This document shows, one piece after another, positions 7,584 through 36,494 of a DNA stretch of 64,000 nucleotides. Below the pieces are notes generated by a model. That model was not told the origin of the DNA, ran no database searches, and was given only the letters and a program-made list of their open reading frames with translations. The position numbers and the translations under genes are program-made. The stretch lies in assembly GCA_015143295.1 (NCBI GenBank), contig CM026568.1, forward strand, positions 16,684,607 through 16,748,606, written 5' to 3'. Position 1 is the first letter of the stretch; each line of letters opens with the position of its first letter. The DNA comes from Tetracentron sinense. Its lineage: Eukaryota > Streptophyta > Magnoliopsida > Trochodendrales > Trochodendraceae.

Positions 7584-8516
7584 TCAGCCTTGGCGCTTCG
7601 CCGATGAATGAACTCCTTTGTTCTTCCTGCACCAATCCTTATATTTGAAACAGTTTCTTTTCATGTGACCTTTCCCCTTGCAGAAGAAACACTCAATCTC
7701 CTCTAGTTCCTCAGTATTATCATTTCCCTGAAATTGATATCCCGAACTCTGTCCTAAATTATGACCTGAACTCTGTCCTTGATTATATCCTGAATTTTGT
7801 CCTTGCCAGAAATTCTGTGAATTAGGTTTCTTGAACCTTTTATTCTTAAAATTCTTCTTACTACCAGAATTCACAGCCAAGTTCGCATACTCGGCTTTCC
7901 CACACTTCAAGCGCTCTTCCTCACTAACACACACAGCTATCAGTTCATGTAGATCCCACTTCCTATCCTGTGCACTGTAATTAACCTTAAAAGCATCAAA
8001 TGATTCAGGAAGTGAGGCTACAGCCAAATGCACCATGAGGTCATCCTCAATTGTCAACCCAAGCTCTCTAAGAGAGATAATTAACTTAGATATCTTCAAG
8101 ATGTGCTCCCGAACATTTTCAGCACCATCATACTTCAATGAAATCAGCTGAGTTAAACAACTGTACTGACGAGACCTAACAGATCCCATAAATTGTTTCT
8201 TGATAGTCTCAAGAAGAACCTTAGCAGTATCAGCAGCAGGAATACCACCTCTGATGGCTTCTTGAACAGAAGCCCTAATGATCATCATGGCCATCCTATT
8301 GGCCTTCTCCCATTTCGAATACAAAGACTTATTTGAATCTGAAGACTCAGCAGTGGGAGTAACCGACTTTTCCTCCAGTAGGACAAAGTCGTAATCAAGG
8401 CAACCCAGAACTATATCTAGCTGCATCTTCCAAGAACTATAGTTTGAACCATTCAGAGGCTCAATCCCAGTCAAATGTTTCTGAACAACAGACCCATCCA
8501 TATCTGAAAATGTCAA
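7584..8516 (-). CDS. Copia-type Gag polyprotein (UBN2 domain plus CCHC zinc knuckle)
   Basis: This 310-residue capsid protein packages element RNA in cytoplasmic particles. Residues about 10-60 carry the start typical of copia Gag (GSNYSSWKMQLDIVLGCLDY). Residues about 70-205 form the UBN2/retrotran-gag fold, with LISLKYDGAENVREHILKI and SLPESFDAFKVNY-like motifs. A Gln/Gly/Ser-rich linker of GQSSG-type repeats follows, then one zinc knuckle, CFFCKGKGHMKRNC (about 276-289), and a basic tail. The length matches a stand-alone Gag rather than a Gag-Pol fusion, and the frame closes shortly after the knuckle. It is the sole product of the surrounding LTR element and is presumably transcribed from the right LTR after a long leader. 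Confidence 0.92.
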   Translation of the reverse strand: MTFSDMDGSVVQKHLTGIEPLNGSNYSSWKMQLDIVLGCLDYDFVLLEEKSVTPTAESSDSNKSLYSKWEKANRMAMMIIRASVQEAIRGGIPAADTAKVLLETIKKQFMGSVRSRQYSCLTQLISLKYDGAENVREHILKISKLIISLRELGLTIEDDLMVHLAVASLPESFDAFKVNYSAQDRKWDLHELIAVCVSEEERLKCGKAEYANLAVNSGSKKNFKNKRFKKPNSQNFWQGQNSGYNQGQSSGHNLGQSSGYQFQGNDNTEELEEIECFFCKGKGHMKRNCFKYKDWCRKNKGVHSSAKRQG

Positions 8517-12523: not shown

Positions 12524-12549
12524 CCGTGCATCGTACGGCTTCTTACTAG
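12524..12549 (+). mobile_element. Helitron 3' terminus (first of a tandem trio)
   Basis: A short hairpin, CCGTGCATCGTACGG (12524-12538), is followed 11 nt later by CTAG and then T. This is the classic 3' end of plant Helitrons: a hairpin 10-12 nt before CTRR, with insertion at A/T. Only the terminus is recognised. Its 5' end lies somewhere to the left. Confidence 0.65.
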
Positions 12550-12558
12550 TATCTATCT

Positions 12559-13615
12559 ATCTATACTAATAATATATGCCAGTTGGTTCCACGTGGCATA
12601 TCTCATTGGCCTCTATTTTCTAATCTGGTTCATGCAACATATCTTTTAATTGATCCAATAAGAAAAAGTTACATCACTCTTTTAATTATTGTTCTTCCTT
12701 CCTAATTAAGTGATGGTTAATTGCTCACTTTCACCCACTCACATTCTTTTTTTTTTTTAATTACAATTAATTAAATTGTAACAATAAATATTTATTTTTT
12801 CTTCTATTTCTACTCTTTAATTACAACTAATTAAGTTGTAACATTTAAATTATTAAGAAGTCTAAGGGTCTCTTATTCCTTCCCTCCATATTCTCATTCT
12901 TCAATTGCAATTTATTAAATTGTAACATTTACCATCCTAAAATTTTCTAACTCTTGATCTACCTTCTCCTTAATCCCTTATAAATAGTAGACAAATCCAC
13001 AAGACATTTTTCATTCTCAAACATGTAAGGATTTGGCATGTTGTACATTTTAGTTAGTATGGTTCAGTAAGAAGGTTTTTCCTAAACATTGAAGCTTCTA
13101 GAGTGGAAATATTAAGAAGTTTGTTTTCACGGCAGCTATTAGGAAGTTCTTAAGTCTGGGTGCATTATGGCATGAGTGCATTTTCGGGTACTATATTTTG
13201 GGTAATTCGATGCTATTGGAAGCTGTCAGGTCCTGACATTAGTTATTTTTAAACTTATGAGTCTCTACATGGAGCTTTGGCAGAGTATTAGTGCATTTTA
13301 GACACTATTTTGGGTCTTCTATTTTTCTCTTGCAGTATCGATTTGAAATATCATAGATATTTCTCACTGAAATTAATGAGATTCACGCTATCATTGATAT
13401 AAAGAGTAAAAAATGAAATTCAAATTATTCTTAATATTCATTGGTGTTAAAGTATCAAGTGGTTTCATCTAAAGTTTTTCATCTCTCAATTAATTGTAAA
13501 AAAAAAAATTAACAATAATAAACGAAGAAAAGAGATCTTTCCTAAAATTATTGTCTACCCTAAATCTCTCGTTATATATAAATATATATAAATTATATTC
13601 ATTTACTTAGGTTAT
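12559..13615 (+). repeat. Left arm of 2.1-kb palindrome
   Basis: This 1057-bp arm matches 13638-14694 in reverse complement. I found only about five mismatches by eye, three of them close to the centre. Homopolymer runs have the same length in both arms. No protein-coding frame is seen. The motif CCACGTGGCA lies near its outer end. Confidence 0.93.
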
Positions 13616-13637
13616 AATTAATTATATTCACTCTCCA

Positions 13638-14694
13638 ATAACCTAAGTAAATCAATATAATTTATAAATATGTATATATAACGAGAGATTTAGGGTAGAC
13701 AATAATTTTAGGAAAGATCTCTTTTCTTCGTTTATTATTGTTAATTTTTTTTTTTACAATTAATTGAGAGATGAAAAACTTTAGATGAAACCACTTGATA
13801 CTTTAACACCAATGAATATTAAGAATAATTTGAATTTCATTTTTTACTCTTTATATCAATGATAGCGTGAATCTCATTAATTTCAGTGAGAAATATCTAT
13901 GATATTTCAAATCGATACTGCAAGAGAAAAATAGAAGACCCAAAATAGTGTCTAAAATGCACTAATACTCTGCCAAAGCTCCATGTAGAGACTCATAAGT
14001 TTAAAAATAACTAATGTCAGGACCTGACAGCTTCCAATAGCATCGAATTACCCAAAATATAGTACCCGAAAATGCATTCATGCCATAATGCACCCAGACT
14101 TAAGAACTTCCTAATAGCTGCCGTGAAAACAAACTTCTTAATATTTCCACTCTAGAAGCTTCAATGTTTAGGAAAAACCTTCTTACTGAACCATACTAAC
14201 TAAAATGTACAACATGCCAAATCCTTACATGTTTGAGAATGAAAAATGTCTTGTGGATTTGTCTACTATTTATAAGGGATTAGGGAGAAGGTAGATCAAG
14301 AGTTAGAAAATTTTAGGATGGTAAATGTTACAATTTAATAAATTGCAATTGAAGAATGAGAATATGGAGGGAAGGAATAAGAGACCCTTAGACTTCTTAA
14401 TAATTTAAATGTTACAACTTAATTAGTTGTAATTAAAGAGTAGAAATAGAAGAAAAAATAAATATTTATTGTTACAATTTAATTAATTGTAATTAAAAAA
14501 AAAAAAGAATGTGAGTGGGTGAAAGTGAGCAATTAACCATCACTTAATTAGGAAGGAAGAACAATAATTAAAAGAGTGATGTAACTTTTTCTTATTGGAT
14601 CAATTAAAAGATATGTTGCATGAACCAGATTAGAAAATAGAGGCCAATGAGATATGCCACGTGGAACCAACTGGCATATATTATTAGTATAGAT
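13638..14694 (-). repeat. Right arm of 2.1-kb palindrome
   Basis: This is the reverse complement of 12559-13615, with identical length (1057 bp) and a 22-bp AT-rich loop between the arms (13616-13637). Any transcript across it would fold into a long, nearly perfect double-stranded RNA. Confidence 0.93.
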
Positions 14695-15519
14695 GCTATA
14701 AGAAATTGAGTTTCTTGACATGGTATCTCTATTTGATTTTTATTTTATATTTTGTTATATTATGCAAATCAGTGGTAGTGTTAAAGTGAGTCCCACTAGA
14801 AAAAAATTTAATTACATGTTGTTTCGGGTTGAAGAATAGGAAGAGATTAACATTTTATCTTCTATGTAAACTTTTCTTTATAATAACTAATTATTTAAAG
14901 AAATTATTTATTTACAAGAAATATCATCATCTCTAAAACTTTTAAATAATTTGACAAATTAAATTTTTAGATTAAATGAGATAAAAAAATTTTATATAAT
15001 GATGCAAACTTACTCTCTTGAAGTTTTATAATAATAAGATAAAAATTTATATATAACAATAAAATTATGAATTTTTAAATGATTAAATTAGTTACTTTTA
15101 ATATGATACATATGAAAAATCTCACAAGAGATGACTAAACTATCATCATTTTTCTTATATTTTATTTTTATATTATTTTCTTACTATCTATTTTTAATTT
15201 TCTCATCATATTTTTTGATTATTCATTTTCTTTCAACTCCCCGTGCATTTGCTAGTCTACTATATACTAAAGAAATAAGATGCCTAGGTGGCACCCTTTT
15301 TTAGTCTTTATTTTCTCTTAATTTTGCCACATCATCCCACTCATTTATTAGATTGTATTTGATATTTTATTAGTCCCCACACGTAACTATTTTCAAAGCA
15401 TAGACCTCTTCCAATCAGGCTATTCATCTTCCAAGCATTTCCCAAGAAACCTCTTCCCAATAGGCTTTTCATCTCCTTGGTGTCCTAGAAGTACAGAGTT
15501 GATGCCTTGATTTGCATAG

Positions 15520-15672
15520 GCCACCATGTCTCTTAAGGAGATGGGGAGTCCTCTTCTGCTGGCAAAGCTTGACGCAGAGCACTACCCAAAATCTGCGTCT
15601 CTTCTTGGGATCAAAGGCTTCCCAACTCTGCTTCTCTTTGTCAATGGGAGTTCCCAAGTGTATAATGGATGA
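15520..15672 (+). pseudogene. Captured exon of a protein disulfide isomerase-like gene
   Basis: The frame from 15526 encodes 48 residues ending at a [23 protein letters not shown], then [20 protein letters not shown]. This matches the second half of a thioredoxin fold, with the cis-Pro loop [11 protein letters not shown]. It most resembles plant PDI-like 1-5/1-6 proteins, where AKIDGERY and [14 protein letters not shown] occur. The catalytic CxxC half is absent. Reading leftward in frame, GCCACC codes Ala-Thr and an AG lies just before it, so the piece probably starts at an exon edge. It is a fragment carried by the Helitron, not a working gene. Confidence 0.7.
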
Positions 15673-16512
15673 TTTTCTGTGTAAGATTTTTGGTTTGCCA
15701 AATTATATTATGTTATAATTGCCACAAGAGCTTGAAATTCAGCTTAAAACTCATTGATTAAGATGTTTTCCTTCAATAGAAAAATTGTTTGCCTATTTCC
15801 CCCTTTGATTTGCTTTTCGATGGTTGAACAACCAAGATCCCTTTGATGCATTTGATTTTTGATAGGTGAGTGAAGCTTTGTGTTAGATTTTTAGTGAAAG
15901 ATAGTTCTTCCAATAGAGATTTAATAGATGACATATATCCTTGATATTTTATTCGACAACAAATACAACTATCTCCATTTTAATAGGAGTAAATAGAATC
16001 ACACATTTTTTTTTTCTATTTAGAATGCATGCACATGGTTATTTCTTAATATGATCGTAATTAGTTTTTCTTAATCAAGGGAATATTAATGTTCATATCA
16101 TTAAACTTACATCCTTTTTCTTTATCTGTTACTATCATGGACATGTTTTTATTGATTTAGATGAATGTGTTTTACTTGGATAACATTGATCATTGTCACA
16201 GTTTTAGCGGCATGAAGAAGAGATGGTATCTCTTAAATTGCGTGTCCCATTTAGGCGCTTCTCTCACAACTTTGGGATTTTTTTTTTTCGAATATGTTTA
16301 TTTTTCCTAATTATCCTTTCTTCCTCACTTGAAGGAAGGCCCTCTGATTTAGCAAAATGGTGACAAGTGTTGCTTTAACTAGAGTTAACCAAGCCCAACT
16401 TGCTCAACAAACACCATCAGGACACTTATCAAGCTAATATGATGTATCTTAGGAGCAGCAGTGGCAACCGATCCAAAAAAATAAAGGAGCAGCAGTGGCA
16501 TAAACCTCAACT

Positions 16513-16884
16513 TTGATAGCTCCAGTAACAAACTTGTTGAGACCCCCTGATGAGTTTTCATGGAGGAAATATGGACAGAAGCCAATCAAGGGTTCTCCAC
16601 ATCTTAGGGGATACTATAATAAGTGTAGCAGCATGAGAGGTTGCCCAGCAAGGAAGCACGTTGAGAGGTGCTTGGAAGACCCTTCAATGCTTATTGTCAC
16701 TTACAAAGGTGAGCATAATCATTCCAGGCTACTATCACAATCTACACAGACTTTGTGGAAAGCTTCATCCAAATCACTTCAACGGCCACACTATTCATAT
16801 ACTTCTTCAACATGCAGTTTATGTTTGATTGTGAATTCAATTAAATTGTTAAATTTTTCCAGGACTTTCATTTTCATTATATAA
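16513..16884 (+). pseudogene. Captured WRKY group IId domain fragment
   Basis: The frame contains [20 protein letters not shown], then a zinc finger with CSSMRGC and the closing HNH (to 16722), followed by [30 protein letters not shown] and [15 protein letters not shown]-type residues mark group IId, nearest WRKY21/39/74. The DNA-contact heptapeptide WRKYGQK and the C-X5-C and H-X-H ligands are intact. Two oddities stand out. An extra Asn sits in GYYNKC (family GYYKC). Residues like SNKLVE that normally precede the domain are in another frame, so there is an upstream frameshift. The expected intron inside the domain is missing. The basic region and N-terminus are absent, so it is a Helitron-borne pseudogene. 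Confidence 0.85.
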
Positions 16885-17021
16885 TTCTACAATATTATAT
16901 AAAATAAATAATTTGATATAAAAAAATTCTTAGACAAATTGAGATTCTCACAGGAGTTAAAAAAAAATAAAAATAAATTAACTAGAGTTCATGCAGTTTG
17001 AGTTAACTTTATGAGAGCGAG

Positions 17022-17190
17022 GAGCAATAGTTCGCTCCTCGAACTATTGCTCATTATTGAATATGTAAATAAAAATACAACAAGTGGCATTCACTGTCAT
17101 TGGAGTATTGATGGTCTCCTTTTGACAACCTTTAACTGTGGTCAAGATTCACTCATCCCTAAGGTTCACCCACCTATCCTTAGTTTTTTT
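17022..17190. repeat. Repeat block shared with 45.9-46.4 kb
   Basis: A 13-bp perfect inverted repeat (GAGCAATAGTTCG, 5-bp loop) is followed by a CTGTGGTCAAGATTCACTCATCC-like stretch. The same order, GCGAGGAGC-AGTAGT and GGTTAAGATTCACTAATCC, occurs at 45955-46110 and 46240-46390. It is probably a small dispersed repeat that rode along in the Helitron. Confidence 0.5.
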
Positions 17191-18622
17191 TTTTTTTTTT
17201 TTTTTGCTGGAGTTATCATGTACCTATGTTATATTATGCAATGTTAAGAACCTAACATTCCAAACAAAAAAAAAAAGAACCTAACATTAATGTTAGGTGA
17301 GATACACACTATCCTAACTGAAGGAGGAAGCCAAATCGAGCTCATTGTGGTGGTGTGAAGATGTGCCCATTTACTACCCATCTTTCTCTCTGATGACCTC
17401 TGTCTCTCTAAATTAATATGATATTAAACTTTTATTTTCTCATTCTTATTTTTAGTTTTTTTTTTCGCTCCCGTGCATTGCACGGGGTCTTTGCTAGTAA
17501 ATATATTAAATGCATTAAAAGTTTCAAAACTCAAGAATTACAAAGAAAAGGTTTTCAAATGAACGGTTACCACCCCACTCCATTGTCTTTGAATTAAAAC
17601 CTCCTTGGGCTATGTGCCCATAAAGATCCAACTTCCACATGAATGAGATGCACCATAACAATTCTGAAGGACAAATCAAAGACCAATAAACAAAATTATA
17701 TTTCAATAAAATTGTTTAAAATGAAATCAAATCCAACAAACCCCCACTTGATTTAATTTTAAAAATTTATATACATATATGGGCTTTCATGAATATCTTG
17801 TGCATACATGAAAGTGTCTTTCGACTTGAACCTCCACTTAGTGCAAACAATTCAAAGTTAGCCAAGGAGTACAGTGGATAAAACCCTGAACTGTGAACCC
17901 GAGCTGACTAACCGGATTTGTCGTGCACACTCTCCTTTCAGAGGTTATTTGTACCAAAAAGCTCAACATTTTTACAATCATCCTTCAATCCCAACTTACT
18001 GAGAGCTTAAAAGATAAGTCTCAACTCATAGGAAGTGACGAGCTTCCAACTCTCAGAAAGGTGAGTCTATCAAGAGTACTCCTATCACAGTTCCACCATT
18101 TAAGGTGTATATATAACACTCATTAAGAGAATTCTTAATAATTCTCAACCTATAACCACAGGATCATCTGCAGGTTGACATCCTGCAAGCTATGCACTAT
18201 CCACTTCTTCTCAGGAAGGGACTCATTTCATAAGAGATACAAGAAATAAATTTCCTTGATGGTAGTGGTGTACAATTATTTTGACACACGCTTGTGTTGT
18301 CCCATTGAACCTGAGAGTCTCATTGGAGGTTGGGTTTCCACCCGAAATAACTAAATACAGACTTTAGTTCCATTCCTTTAGATGTCACCAAGACTTTGTG
18401 AGAGTACTTGGCTAAGGGTCTACCATTTCAAGACTTACCATACTGAGTGACCTTAGTACCATCAATCTCCCCTTAAAAGCTTACGACATTTTTGTCTTGC
18501 TTAACTTTCAGTCACATAAATGAAGTGAAAAGTATCTAGACATTTACCATAATGGCTCCCAATCGATTTACACATTTCTAATAGATTGATTAATGAATTC
18601 TTATGCATGAAATAATCTCTTA

Positions 18623-31164: not shown

Positions 31165-32639
31165 CTGGGCAATAGAGTTTCGGTCCAGACTGATGAGCAC
31201 CATATACACCAGAGTGAGCTTATTCTAAGGCTTCTCCATCCTCATCATTTCCAAGATATCTCATGAAAGCGTCGTTGAAAGAACATCGGTAAAGCTTGTT
31301 GTTGAAGTACAAGAACCGGGGCACACGATGCCGTATTTTAGTCATGTGCTTCGGGTCTTCTGGTAATTTTACAAACTGGAGATAGTCAATGAGGGAATGT
31401 TTCCAGTCTTCAACTTCAACCTCCAATACTTCAATGGCACTTGTTGCTTGTATTTCAATGTCAATGTTTGGTATCACCCATTGTCGGCAAACGGGAACCA
31501 TTATTGCTTCTTCCTCGGGTAAGGTCAATGTTGCAGCGAGGTTGGCCAGAGCGTTGGCTTGTTTGTTCTCATTCCTTGGTACATGTTTGATGGTAACATC
31601 CTCGATCTGGTTCATGAGATGAGTAGCATACATGTGATAGGGGATGAGATCTGACTTATGAACTTCATACTCCATCAAGAGTTGATTTACAACAAGCTTC
31701 GAGTCACCATACACGTCGAGTTGATGAAGTTGCGTACCGTGAACTAGCTCCAACCCAATGATGAGAGATTGGTACTCCACCACATTGTTTAAACATAGTT
31801 CTATAAATGTAAAGGCAAAAGACAAGACTGCATTGTGTGGAGTAATGAAGACAACTCCAGCTCCCGCTGCATTTCTTATAGCGGCACCATCGAAGAACAT
31901 TCTCCAAGCTGGTAAGATCTCAACATAGAATACCTCTTCATAATCTTCGGATAGTTCCCACTTTGCCGGAATTGGGTGATCTGTGAGAAACTCAGCTAGT
32001 GCTTGTCCTTTTACCGCTTTCTGAGGAATGTAGAAAATTTCAAATTCTGGCAAAAGAAGAGCCCATTTAGCGAGTCTCCTCGAGAGAACTGGTCTCGTCA
32101 TGATATACTTGATTGGATCGTCCCAGGAGATGAGTCGAATTGTATGTGACAGCATGTAATGCCACAATTTCTTTGTTCCGAAGATGAGAGCTAGACACAT
32201 CTTTTCGATGGGTGAGTAGTTTAACTCTGCCCCCACTAAAGTTCGACTCAAGTAGTAGAGCGCATTTTCCTTACCATCACTATTTTCTTGTGCGAGCAAT
32301 GCCCCCAATGACTATTCTTGTGCTCTGATGTTGAGGATCAGCGGTTTCTCTAGGATAGGTGCTGCTAAAACCGGTGGTTTGAGACGGTACTCTTTGATAC
32401 TCTTTAGAGCGTTCTTGCAAGCGTCATCCCAATGAAACATTGCATCTTTCTTCATCAACTTGTTAAAGGGGTGACACCGTCCTGCTAGATTTGAGATGAA
32501 CCTCCGGATATAAGCGAGACGAACTTGGAGACCTTTGAGCTCACAGATGTTCTTAGGTTGTGGCATATTCTGGATGGCATTGATCTTGGTTTGGTCAATC
32601 TCAATGCCGCGATGTCGAACAATGAATCCAAGAAACTTG
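31165..32639 (-). pseudogene. Tat pol: RT end, RNase H and archaeal-type RNase H
   Basis: On the minus strand, 32713-32312 encodes the RT thumb/connection (GKFLGFIVRHRGIE, then a Tat-typical IDQTKINAIQNMP). 32308-31220 encodes the gypsy RNase H (ENALYYLSRTLVGAELNYSP) followed by a second RNase H fold (MFFDGAA, GAGVVFITP, VVEYQSLIIGLELV, VYGDSKLVVNQLL, HVPRNENKQANALANLA). The double RNase H is diagnostic for the Tat lineage. The start of integrase (an AHSGVYGAHQSGPKL motif) follows, then the sequence leaves the element. Fossil copy. Confidence 0.88.
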
Positions 32640-34434: not shown

Positions 34435-36494
34435 CTAAGAAGATCGATCGTCATCTGCATCACTATTCGACTCAAGGACATCGCCATACAATGCAAGAGA
34501 GAGACCTTCATCAAATGATGGACGCAACCAATCCTCTGTGCAAATCAATGCCTCTATAGTCTTCAGAAGTAAAGAGCTACGGTATTTGCTTATAACTCTA
34601 CCCCCAGTACCGAACGCTGACTCCGATGATACTGTTTTTATTGGAATAGATAAAACATCGTGAGCCATCCTAGAGAGTGTGTGAAACCTTGTATTGTTGG
34701 ACTTCCACCACTGCAAAATGTCAAAATCTGACCCTAGGCCACGAAGAAGGCCCTCATCCAAATAAACATCTAAATCAGATTTTAATGTTTCTAATGACAC
34801 TTTATTTAAAAGAAAGCTATCGAAGTCAGCATCATCATCATGGGCTGCATCACTGCACCCAACGGCCTGGGAAGTGCTCTCTTCCATACTTTCCGGCACA
34901 CTCAAATATAAATCATATAGTTCATATAAGGCATCACGGAATTTTTTCATCTCTTGCTCAACTCTGTAATTAGAATAGATCTTCGGGAAACAATATCGAA
35001 TAAGAGCCATCTTGTATCTAGGATCTAAAATTTCCCAAATGGCCATTAACAAACTACATTCACTCCAATATTTATCGAATTTTTCCTTCATTGGATAAAC
35101 CATCCCTTGCATAAATATAGGTCCATTGATTGCTTTTTTCAACAAAATATCTTTAATTTTCCAAATTTCTGGCAAAAAGACATTTGAGGTAGGATATTTG
35201 CTTCCAGAAAATAATTTTGTGCAATTGTAAAATACCTTTAAAAACTTGCACACCTCATCGGCATTTGACTAGTCTTCAGCCGATGGTAACCAATGGAATT
35301 TTGCATCCCATTCAGCAAAATGTGGAAAAGCGAGTCTTAACTCAAAAGCCGCATCCAACATCTCATATGTCGAATTCTAACGGGTACAAACATCTAATTT
35401 CAAGCCTCTTTTACATGATAAGCCTAAACATTTAACACATTCATTAAAACTGTGGTGTCAAGATTGAGAACCTCGAATGTACTTAATGCTCTCGCAAATG
35501 TTCTCAATGGTAGACTCAATCAATGCAAGCCCATCTCTAACAATAAGATTTAAAATATGAGCAGAACAATGCACCTGAAAGAAAGAAAAAAAATAGAATG
35601 TATCCTAAACATGTACAATGTTTAAAAATTATACAAAAATGAGTAGAATAACTATGTTTAAAAAATTATACCTGAAAAATTTTCCCACCAAAATAGAGTT
35701 TTCCGACTAACTCGAAAGTCGCTTTAATACTTCTTATGACAAGATCATATGCCGATGCATTGTCCAAAGTAATTGCAGAGATCTTATGTTCGATAACCCA
35801 CTCTACAAGACACTGATATATAACATCAACAATATCAAATCCAGTGTGGGGAGGAGGAACATGTCGAAAATTTAAAATCCTCTTATGTCGAACCCAATCG
35901 GCATCCAAATAATGTCCTGTCAAAGACATATAACCCATATTTTGACTACAAGATGTCCACATGTCCGAGGTTAAACTGATTCTCTCTATCATCATCAACT
36001 CATTCTTCAGATTTAGTTTTTTTGCTTTAAATATTTTCATACATTCGTTTTTAATCATCCCACGTGATATCTTTTCATGTAATGGGTTAAGATATTCACA
36101 CAATCCAGTAAATACCTTACTTTCCACAAATTTAAATGGCTTCTCTTCTAAAATTACCAACTTTACAACCCATTCTCTAGCCTTATAAGTTTCATATTTG
36201 TGGATTCCACCTTTGCTTCCATCTGTTTCAGATTCCCCAAATGCCAATACTTGTTGGCCTCTGCCTAAATTCACCCGTCTCGGACATTTACGCAAATGAC
36301 GATGTACATGAGTTGCTGCACCTTGCGCATTTGGTTTAAATTAAGAACTTCTTACAGTGTCTACAAATCAATTTTTTGGATCCATCAGTCATGAATTTTT
36401 CATTAAATTCACCCCAGACCTTAGATCATTTCTTGGCCCTTTTCGGAGATGCATCTTGGCTTTCATTTATGAGTTCTGGTTGATTGGATGACAT
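34435..36494 (-). pseudogene. hAT transposase (BED finger, RNase H-like core, dimerisation domain)
   Basis: An ATG at 36494 starts a BED-finger region (W-GEFNEKF, then CRHCKKFL, about 36415-36350). It is broken by a TGA just before the Trp, by a stop after FL, and by a frameshift near 36340. 36295-35666 encodes the DDE/RNase H-like part (MIERISLTSDMWTSCSQNMG, SAITLDNASAYD). A GT-AG intron probably lies at 35670-35577, and the frame resumes with VHCSAHILNLIV. Two further stops at 35379 and 35270 both replace Trp (TGG to TAG). 35253-34435 carries the C-terminal dimerisation domain (SFLLNKVSLETLKSDLDVYL, LSIPIKTVSSESAFGTGGRV, ALICTEDWLR). The family is RICESLEEPER-like hAT. It is inactive. Confidence 0.88.

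Follow-up and report, generated by a model that had tools for sequence, protein, structure and literature searches.

A kilobase palindrome in an old Helitron copy and its possible origin by replication template switching in place

A non-autonomous Helitron copy that bears the first 1057 nt of its own family sequence a second time, in inverted orientation, forms a near-perfect palindrome at 12559-14694 of the window, i.e., the whole 64-kb stretch of DNA analysed here (C18:16684607-16748606 of a 1.16-Gb genome). The palindrome is confirmed as real, and chance cannot have produced an inverted repeat of 1 kb with 99.5% identity. On balance, it appears to have been made by a recent template switch during replication, in place, in a Helitron copy that was already old, and this origin is favoured over a snap-back in rolling-circle replication. 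Real and unusual as it is, it probably reflects slippage of replication within an old copy and not a new kind of transposition product. Most interesting is that the event seems to have recurred at one site.

The palindrome and its host element

The arms of the inverted repeat (12559-13615 and 13638-14694) measure 1057 nt each, are separated by a 22-nt spacer and differ at 5 of 1057 positions, namely at arm offsets 411, 617, 1022, 1027 and 1041, the first 410 nt being without mismatch. Using 14-nt seeds, this was the sole inverted repeat of at least 90 nt in the 64-kb window. An earlier note on this DNA had given the same arm length and spacer and about five differences, with which the computed alignment agrees. 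The span that it proposed, 12552-14700, holds for the palindrome as such and has to be corrected at its ends: the right arm ends at 14694, and a start at 12552 instead of 12559 takes in two extra TCTA units that precede arm 1 and have no mirror after arm 2. The outer end of both arms is A|TCTATACTAATAATA, which the note had rightly recognised as the Helitron 5′ terminus, as the same terminus is found in an alignment of 38 family copies.

According to this alignment of 38 full copies, the family is a non-autonomous Helitron of ~1.67 kb with the form A|TCTATACTAATA...hairpin-CTAGT. Helitron 3′ ends follow the rule CTRRT. The 5′ terminus is a TC after a host A, with homology starting at A|TCTATACTAATAC in most of the 38 copies, and the 3′ end consists of CCCCGTGCATTTGCACGGGG, TTTTTG and CTAGT, i.e., a canonical hairpin with a CTRRT-type end. 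Helitrons canonically insert at A|T without duplicating the target site; in the flanks of these 38 copies, the 5′ end is preceded by a host A, and CTAGT is followed by A, T or some other base. Copies L044, L050 and several others carry extra TCTA or TCTATA units before TCTATACTAATAC, as might be expected were any TC open to 5′ cleavage. Ordinary copies are composed of the arm, ~22 nt and a 3′ part of ~560 nt, without terminal inverted repeats; the window copy is such an element that has gained, at family position ~1087, an inverted duplicate of its first 1057 nt. Like canonical plant non-autonomous Helitrons, the window copy has a 5′ TC beside a host A and a 3′ CTAGT of the CTRRT type, whereas it differs from them in its second, inverted 5′ half and in the loss of 13 nt from its hairpin.

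The palindromic copy occupies 12560-15256 on the plus strand, both termini being taken from the alignment with the 38 family copies; its 5′ TC lies at 12560, unless the pair of additional TCTA units is counted as element, which would move it to 12552. Inverted-repeat and family comparison identify arm 1 (12559-13615, plus strand) as the ordinary 5′ part of the family together with one flanking A. The spacer (13616-13637, plus strand) is ordinary family sequence up to the putative backward switch, the equal stretch in ordinary copies being followed by ATTAGTAAATAC. Arm 2 (13638-14694, minus strand) is the inverted copy of arm 1, and ordinary copies have no arm 2 here. The return junction ATTAGTATAGATGCTATAAG (14683-14702, plus strand) stands in register with the ordinary ATTAGT......CTATAAG, and family alignment assigns 14695-15256 (plus strand) to the ordinary 3′ part, which matches the family to ~15252 and closes with CTAGT at 15252-15256. 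Its CTAGT is kept, and its terminal hairpin is broken by a 13-nt deletion of family sequence, which makes further jumps of this copy doubtful.

Age of the palindrome

Compared with the family consensus, arm 1 shows 50 departures and arm 2 shows 51, of which 48 are common to both; 14 of these 48 are also present in L032 or L033, and 34 in neither. Counting substitutions only, as in all consensus, shared-departure and pairwise copy distances here, the window arms lie 4.8% and the 3′ part 4.2% from the consensus, and the 38 copies 3.4-6.3%. The arms differ from each other by 0.47% (5/1057), equivalent to 0.24% per arm (95% interval 0.08-0.55%). The nearest other sampled copies are 5.8% and 6.2% from the window copy. 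L032 and L033 are only 1.2% apart, but their flanks are common at 98%, indicating a segmental duplication; with such duplications excluded, the closest sampled pair is L050/L017 at 3.8%. It is this gap between 0.47% and 3.8%, together with the ceiling of 96% among the best 40 genome matches to a 676-nt consensus piece, that speaks against the rolling-circle transposition proposed in the earlier note. Sampled loci were picked by likeness to the window, its parts or the consensus, and younger subfamilies may be unsampled. Judged by these sequence distances, the palindrome looks much younger than the jumps of the family.

Since Helitrons are commonly regarded as transposing by replication, any jump of the same young age as the arms would be expected to leave a near-identical donor. 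Such a donor was not found by BLAST: the best other match reached 92% for the arm (best 40 of 1081) and 93% for the 3′ part (best 40 of 503), values that likewise disagree with a rolling-circle origin. The 1081 and 503 matches are first-look candidates of whole-genome DNA searches in which the best 40 were scored, so that copy counts are lower bounds. The absence of a near-identical donor from these matches suggests that the event came after insertion, in place, although a donor could be lost or absent from the assembly. A right-flank query (15600-17900) detected no second haplotype, with no other match above 93% and none over most of the query among the 44 listed.

Junctions and proposed mechanism

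Ordinary copies read CTCTCTAATTAGTAAATACTCTATAAG across the insertion site, and the nearest relatives, L032 and L033, read CTCTCTAATTAGTTTATATTCTATAAG. In the window, CTCTCCAAT is followed by arm 2, which ends in ATTATTAGTATAGA and passes into TGCTATAAG; ATTAGTATAGATGCTATAAG aligns in register with ATTAGTTTATATTCTATAAG. Exit and return thus correspond to a single point of the ordinary element and the 3′ part continues in register, which fits a growing strand that leaves, copies backwards and rejoins the waiting template. The backward template switch of the earlier note is retained, as it fits both junctions, and only its setting in rolling-circle replication is replaced. An inverted local template, microhomology of ~2 nt at the exit and the in-register ATTAGT at the return are all present, as in MMBIR-like template switching. 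The return point falls within a ~4-nt interval containing the Helitron terminus, and may have been set either by the terminus or by the ATTAGT likeness. The inverted 5′ end has no strong match inside the element: the likeness is moderate, with 8/10 positions alike, and other sites in the element tie with it. The TCTA units that lack a mirror after arm 2 would argue mildly against run-off at the window copy's own 5′ end.

We infer the following course of events. An old non-autonomous Helitron copy would have been resident long after the last visible jumps of its family when DNA synthesis stalled inside the element, just after CTCTCCAAT at family position ~1087. With ~2 nt of microhomology, the growing strand may have switched backwards onto the 5′ part of the same element and copied 1057 nt towards its 5′ end. 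There, ATTAGTATAGA would have been made, which resembles the waiting template (ATTAGT then TTATA or AAATA), permitting a switch back and continuation into the 3′ part. The template switch itself, its occurrence in the resident copy and the reason for the stall are all deductions. Counting against the in-place switch are the only moderate likeness at the return (8/10, tied) and the short exit microhomology. Foldback and microhomology template-switch insertions (PMC11724301, PMC4352052) resemble the window copy in having an inverted nearby copy, a microhomology join and single-base changes near the junctions. The local cases in yeast are mostly ~5-34 bp, whereas here ~1 kb of a plant-like transposon is inverted, apparently on two occasions at one site.

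Mismatches between the arms are clustered near the spacer. Three of the five lie within 36 nt of the switch (8%), with a post hoc P of 0.0004 for that stretch and of 0.01, likewise post hoc, for any three mismatches within 19 nt anywhere in the arm. A hypervariable tip as the source of the cluster is not supported, as the inner tip shows 3.1% substitution in the family versus 4.8% family-wide. Single-base changes acquired together with template-switch rearrangements have been described at such junctions (PMC4352052). The cluster gives the same picture for error-prone synthesis at a template switch and for the unconverted tip of an old palindrome; being expected too if only the tip had escaped gene conversion, it is a point against the in-place switch.

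A second palindromic copy

A genome search for further Helitrons with a duplicated 5′ half, as the earlier note had envisaged, yielded one decayed case. A query across the return junction matched C2:14311626-14311849 with 86% identity over query positions 15-240 of 240. The 6-kb C2 region around this match holds an old copy, L072, that is 9-10% from the consensus in its longer pieces; its arm 1 is cut at the 5′ side, its arm 2 lacks family positions ~517-891, and the two arms are ~13% apart over an overlap of 67 nt. Its return junction GTATAGATAGATAAGAAATTGAG lies at the place used in the window copy, possibly with one TCTA unit more. The inner switch of L072 is near arm position 968, versus 1057 in the window copy, in an old and patchy sequence whose inner junction may have been changed by a later deletion.

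Searched genome-wide, the exact return-junction pattern has two matches, one in the window and one in L072. Allowing up to 3 mismatches, the junction patterns gave 9 and 14 places including these two, and none of the 21 others continues into the family 3′ part; they have only scattered AT-rich matches to it, a comparison from which strongly decayed palindromes could escape. Near-identical places such as L032/L033 being merged, the arm is present in both orientations in 3 of 56 sequence clusters (74 loci), namely the window copy, L072 and L009/L050. Other copies without the second arm had been named by the earlier note as evidence against its reading, and this is half borne out: most sampled copies lack the second arm, and L072 has a version of its own.

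In the phylogenetic tree, the window copy groups with the non-palindromic L032/L033 (support 100/99). One palindromic ancestor of the window copy and L072 is rejected, since a forced clade has a log-likelihood 45.8 lower (AU p 0.0003). This rejection makes it probable that one site underwent two or more separate rearrangements of this kind, with a reservation for the age and patchiness of L072.

Alternative explanations

The strand may instead have snapped back to the free 5′ end during Helitron transposition, in an old insertion whose arms were later homogenised by gene conversion except at the inner tip. We regard this as rather unlikely. The end of arm 2 at the Helitron terminus, within the ~4-nt interval, is predicted directly by transposition and so weighs against the in-place switch; the three differences in the inner 36 nt roughly match the expectation for arms of a ~4.8%-old copy that escaped conversion; and the return junction of L072 is identical in place. 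However, ~1,020 nt would have to be converted up to the outermost base, with no mismatch left in the first 410 nt, and arm 2 has no mirror of this copy's extra 5′ TCTA units. It is also conceivable, and unlikely, that rolling-circle replication yields snap-back copies at a fixed internal site, through pairing of the inverted 5′ terminus with a degenerate version of itself near 1087, so that some products carry a 5′-end palindrome; the window copy and L072, which share their return site and reach the 5′ terminus or its immediate neighbourhood, would be independent products, conversion keeping the window arms alike. A recent transposition whose donor is lost or unassembled would account for the young arms and for the end of arm 2 at the terminus, but is improbable given that no near-identical donor is found among the best 40 of 1081 and 503 matches, that no other sampled jump is below 3.8% pairwise and that no copy exceeds 96% of the consensus piece among the best 40. 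Relative to these readings, the in-place template switch is preferred.

Distinctly improbable is self-insertion, in which a daughter cut short at its 3′ side inserted inverted into its parent copy. Composite Helitrons by self-insertion have been proposed for Fusarium (PMC5148889). The base adjoining the inverted 5′ end is a T, as for an A|T target, and a complete inverted nested copy is known elsewhere in the family: in L009/L050, a whole element in reverse orientation, its hairpin and CTAGT included, lies inside another copy, host and guest being 88-94% alike over matching pieces (~6-12% apart). In contrast to this true nested case with both ends, the window copy has no second 3′ end, its inner copy keeping the 5′ terminus only; its arms are 99.5% identical, the break-off is only 22 nt from the insertion point, and the return point shows an in-register replacement. 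By arm identity and this contrast, insertion of another family member is rejected as well. The Fusarium composites share with the window copy more than one 5′ terminus combined with one 3′ terminus, whereas their duplicated 5′ sequences, ascribed to self-insertion, are typically <200 bp, and that of the window copy is 1057 nt long, inverted and nearly identical. A Helitron with an inverted 5′ half of ~1 kb was not reported in the literature searched, which does not establish its absence from print.

An assembly artefact is very improbable. Near-perfect palindromes are a classic artefact form, but in a fold-back read the left flank would be mirrored as well, and arm 2 stops at the element terminus; moreover, the 3′ part resumes in register, the arms have 5 mismatches, and L072, decayed but with its return junction at the same point, lies on another chromosome. 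The unmirrored left flank and the register of the 3′ part uphold the earlier view that this is no simple fold-back of the assembly. For Helitrons in general, a second inverted 5′ end alone is not evidence of a transposition mechanism, and dating against other copies decides.

Potential hairpin RNA and genomic surroundings

If transcribed, the palindrome would give a hairpin or double-stranded RNA of ~1 kb. Arm 1 contains the motif TATAAATAG at 12979-12987, directed towards the centre, and arm 2 contains its mirror image. Special conservation of this TATA box was rejected: 74% of the 38 copies have it unchanged, which puts it at the 69th percentile, and many other stretches are conserved equally well. 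No Rfam match was obtained at the gathering threshold within the window. An inverted duplication of part of a transposon can silence its family, as described for Mu killer in maize (PMC3440606). Mu killer is like the window copy in being a partial transposon inverted duplication with potential hairpin RNA; unlike it, Mu killer silences an active element, whereas the sampled copies of the family here show no recent jumps and any hairpin transcript would be a potential one only. A kilobase palindrome from the 5′ half of a transposon, apparently formed twice at one site, may serve as a test bed for backward template switching in plant-type DNA, and also for how a transposon past jumping could turn into a source of hairpin RNA.

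Immediately upstream of the palindromic Helitron lies another Helitron, whose terminal hairpin and CTAGT were read by eye at 12524-12550 on the plus strand, the two elements abutting within 12524-12560. As CTAGT occurs within ~45 nt upstream in 6 of 38 aligned copies, such head-to-tail placing is common. Downstream, at 15256-17498, the palindromic copy abuts a second Helitron-like element, which, by eye, begins with TCTACTATATACTAAAG and which ends with the hairpin CCCGTGCATTGCACGGG and CTAGT. This element carries gene fragments: Pfam identifies a WRKY domain (E 6.8e-25) near 16550-16725, and a thioredoxin/PDI-like match near 15540-15655 is weak (E 5e-5, just above the cut-off). Other transposon remains, all on the minus strand, include a copia-type gag (7584-8516), the reverse-transcriptase RNase H of an LTR element (31220-32308) and the C-terminal part of a hAT transposase (34435-35253).
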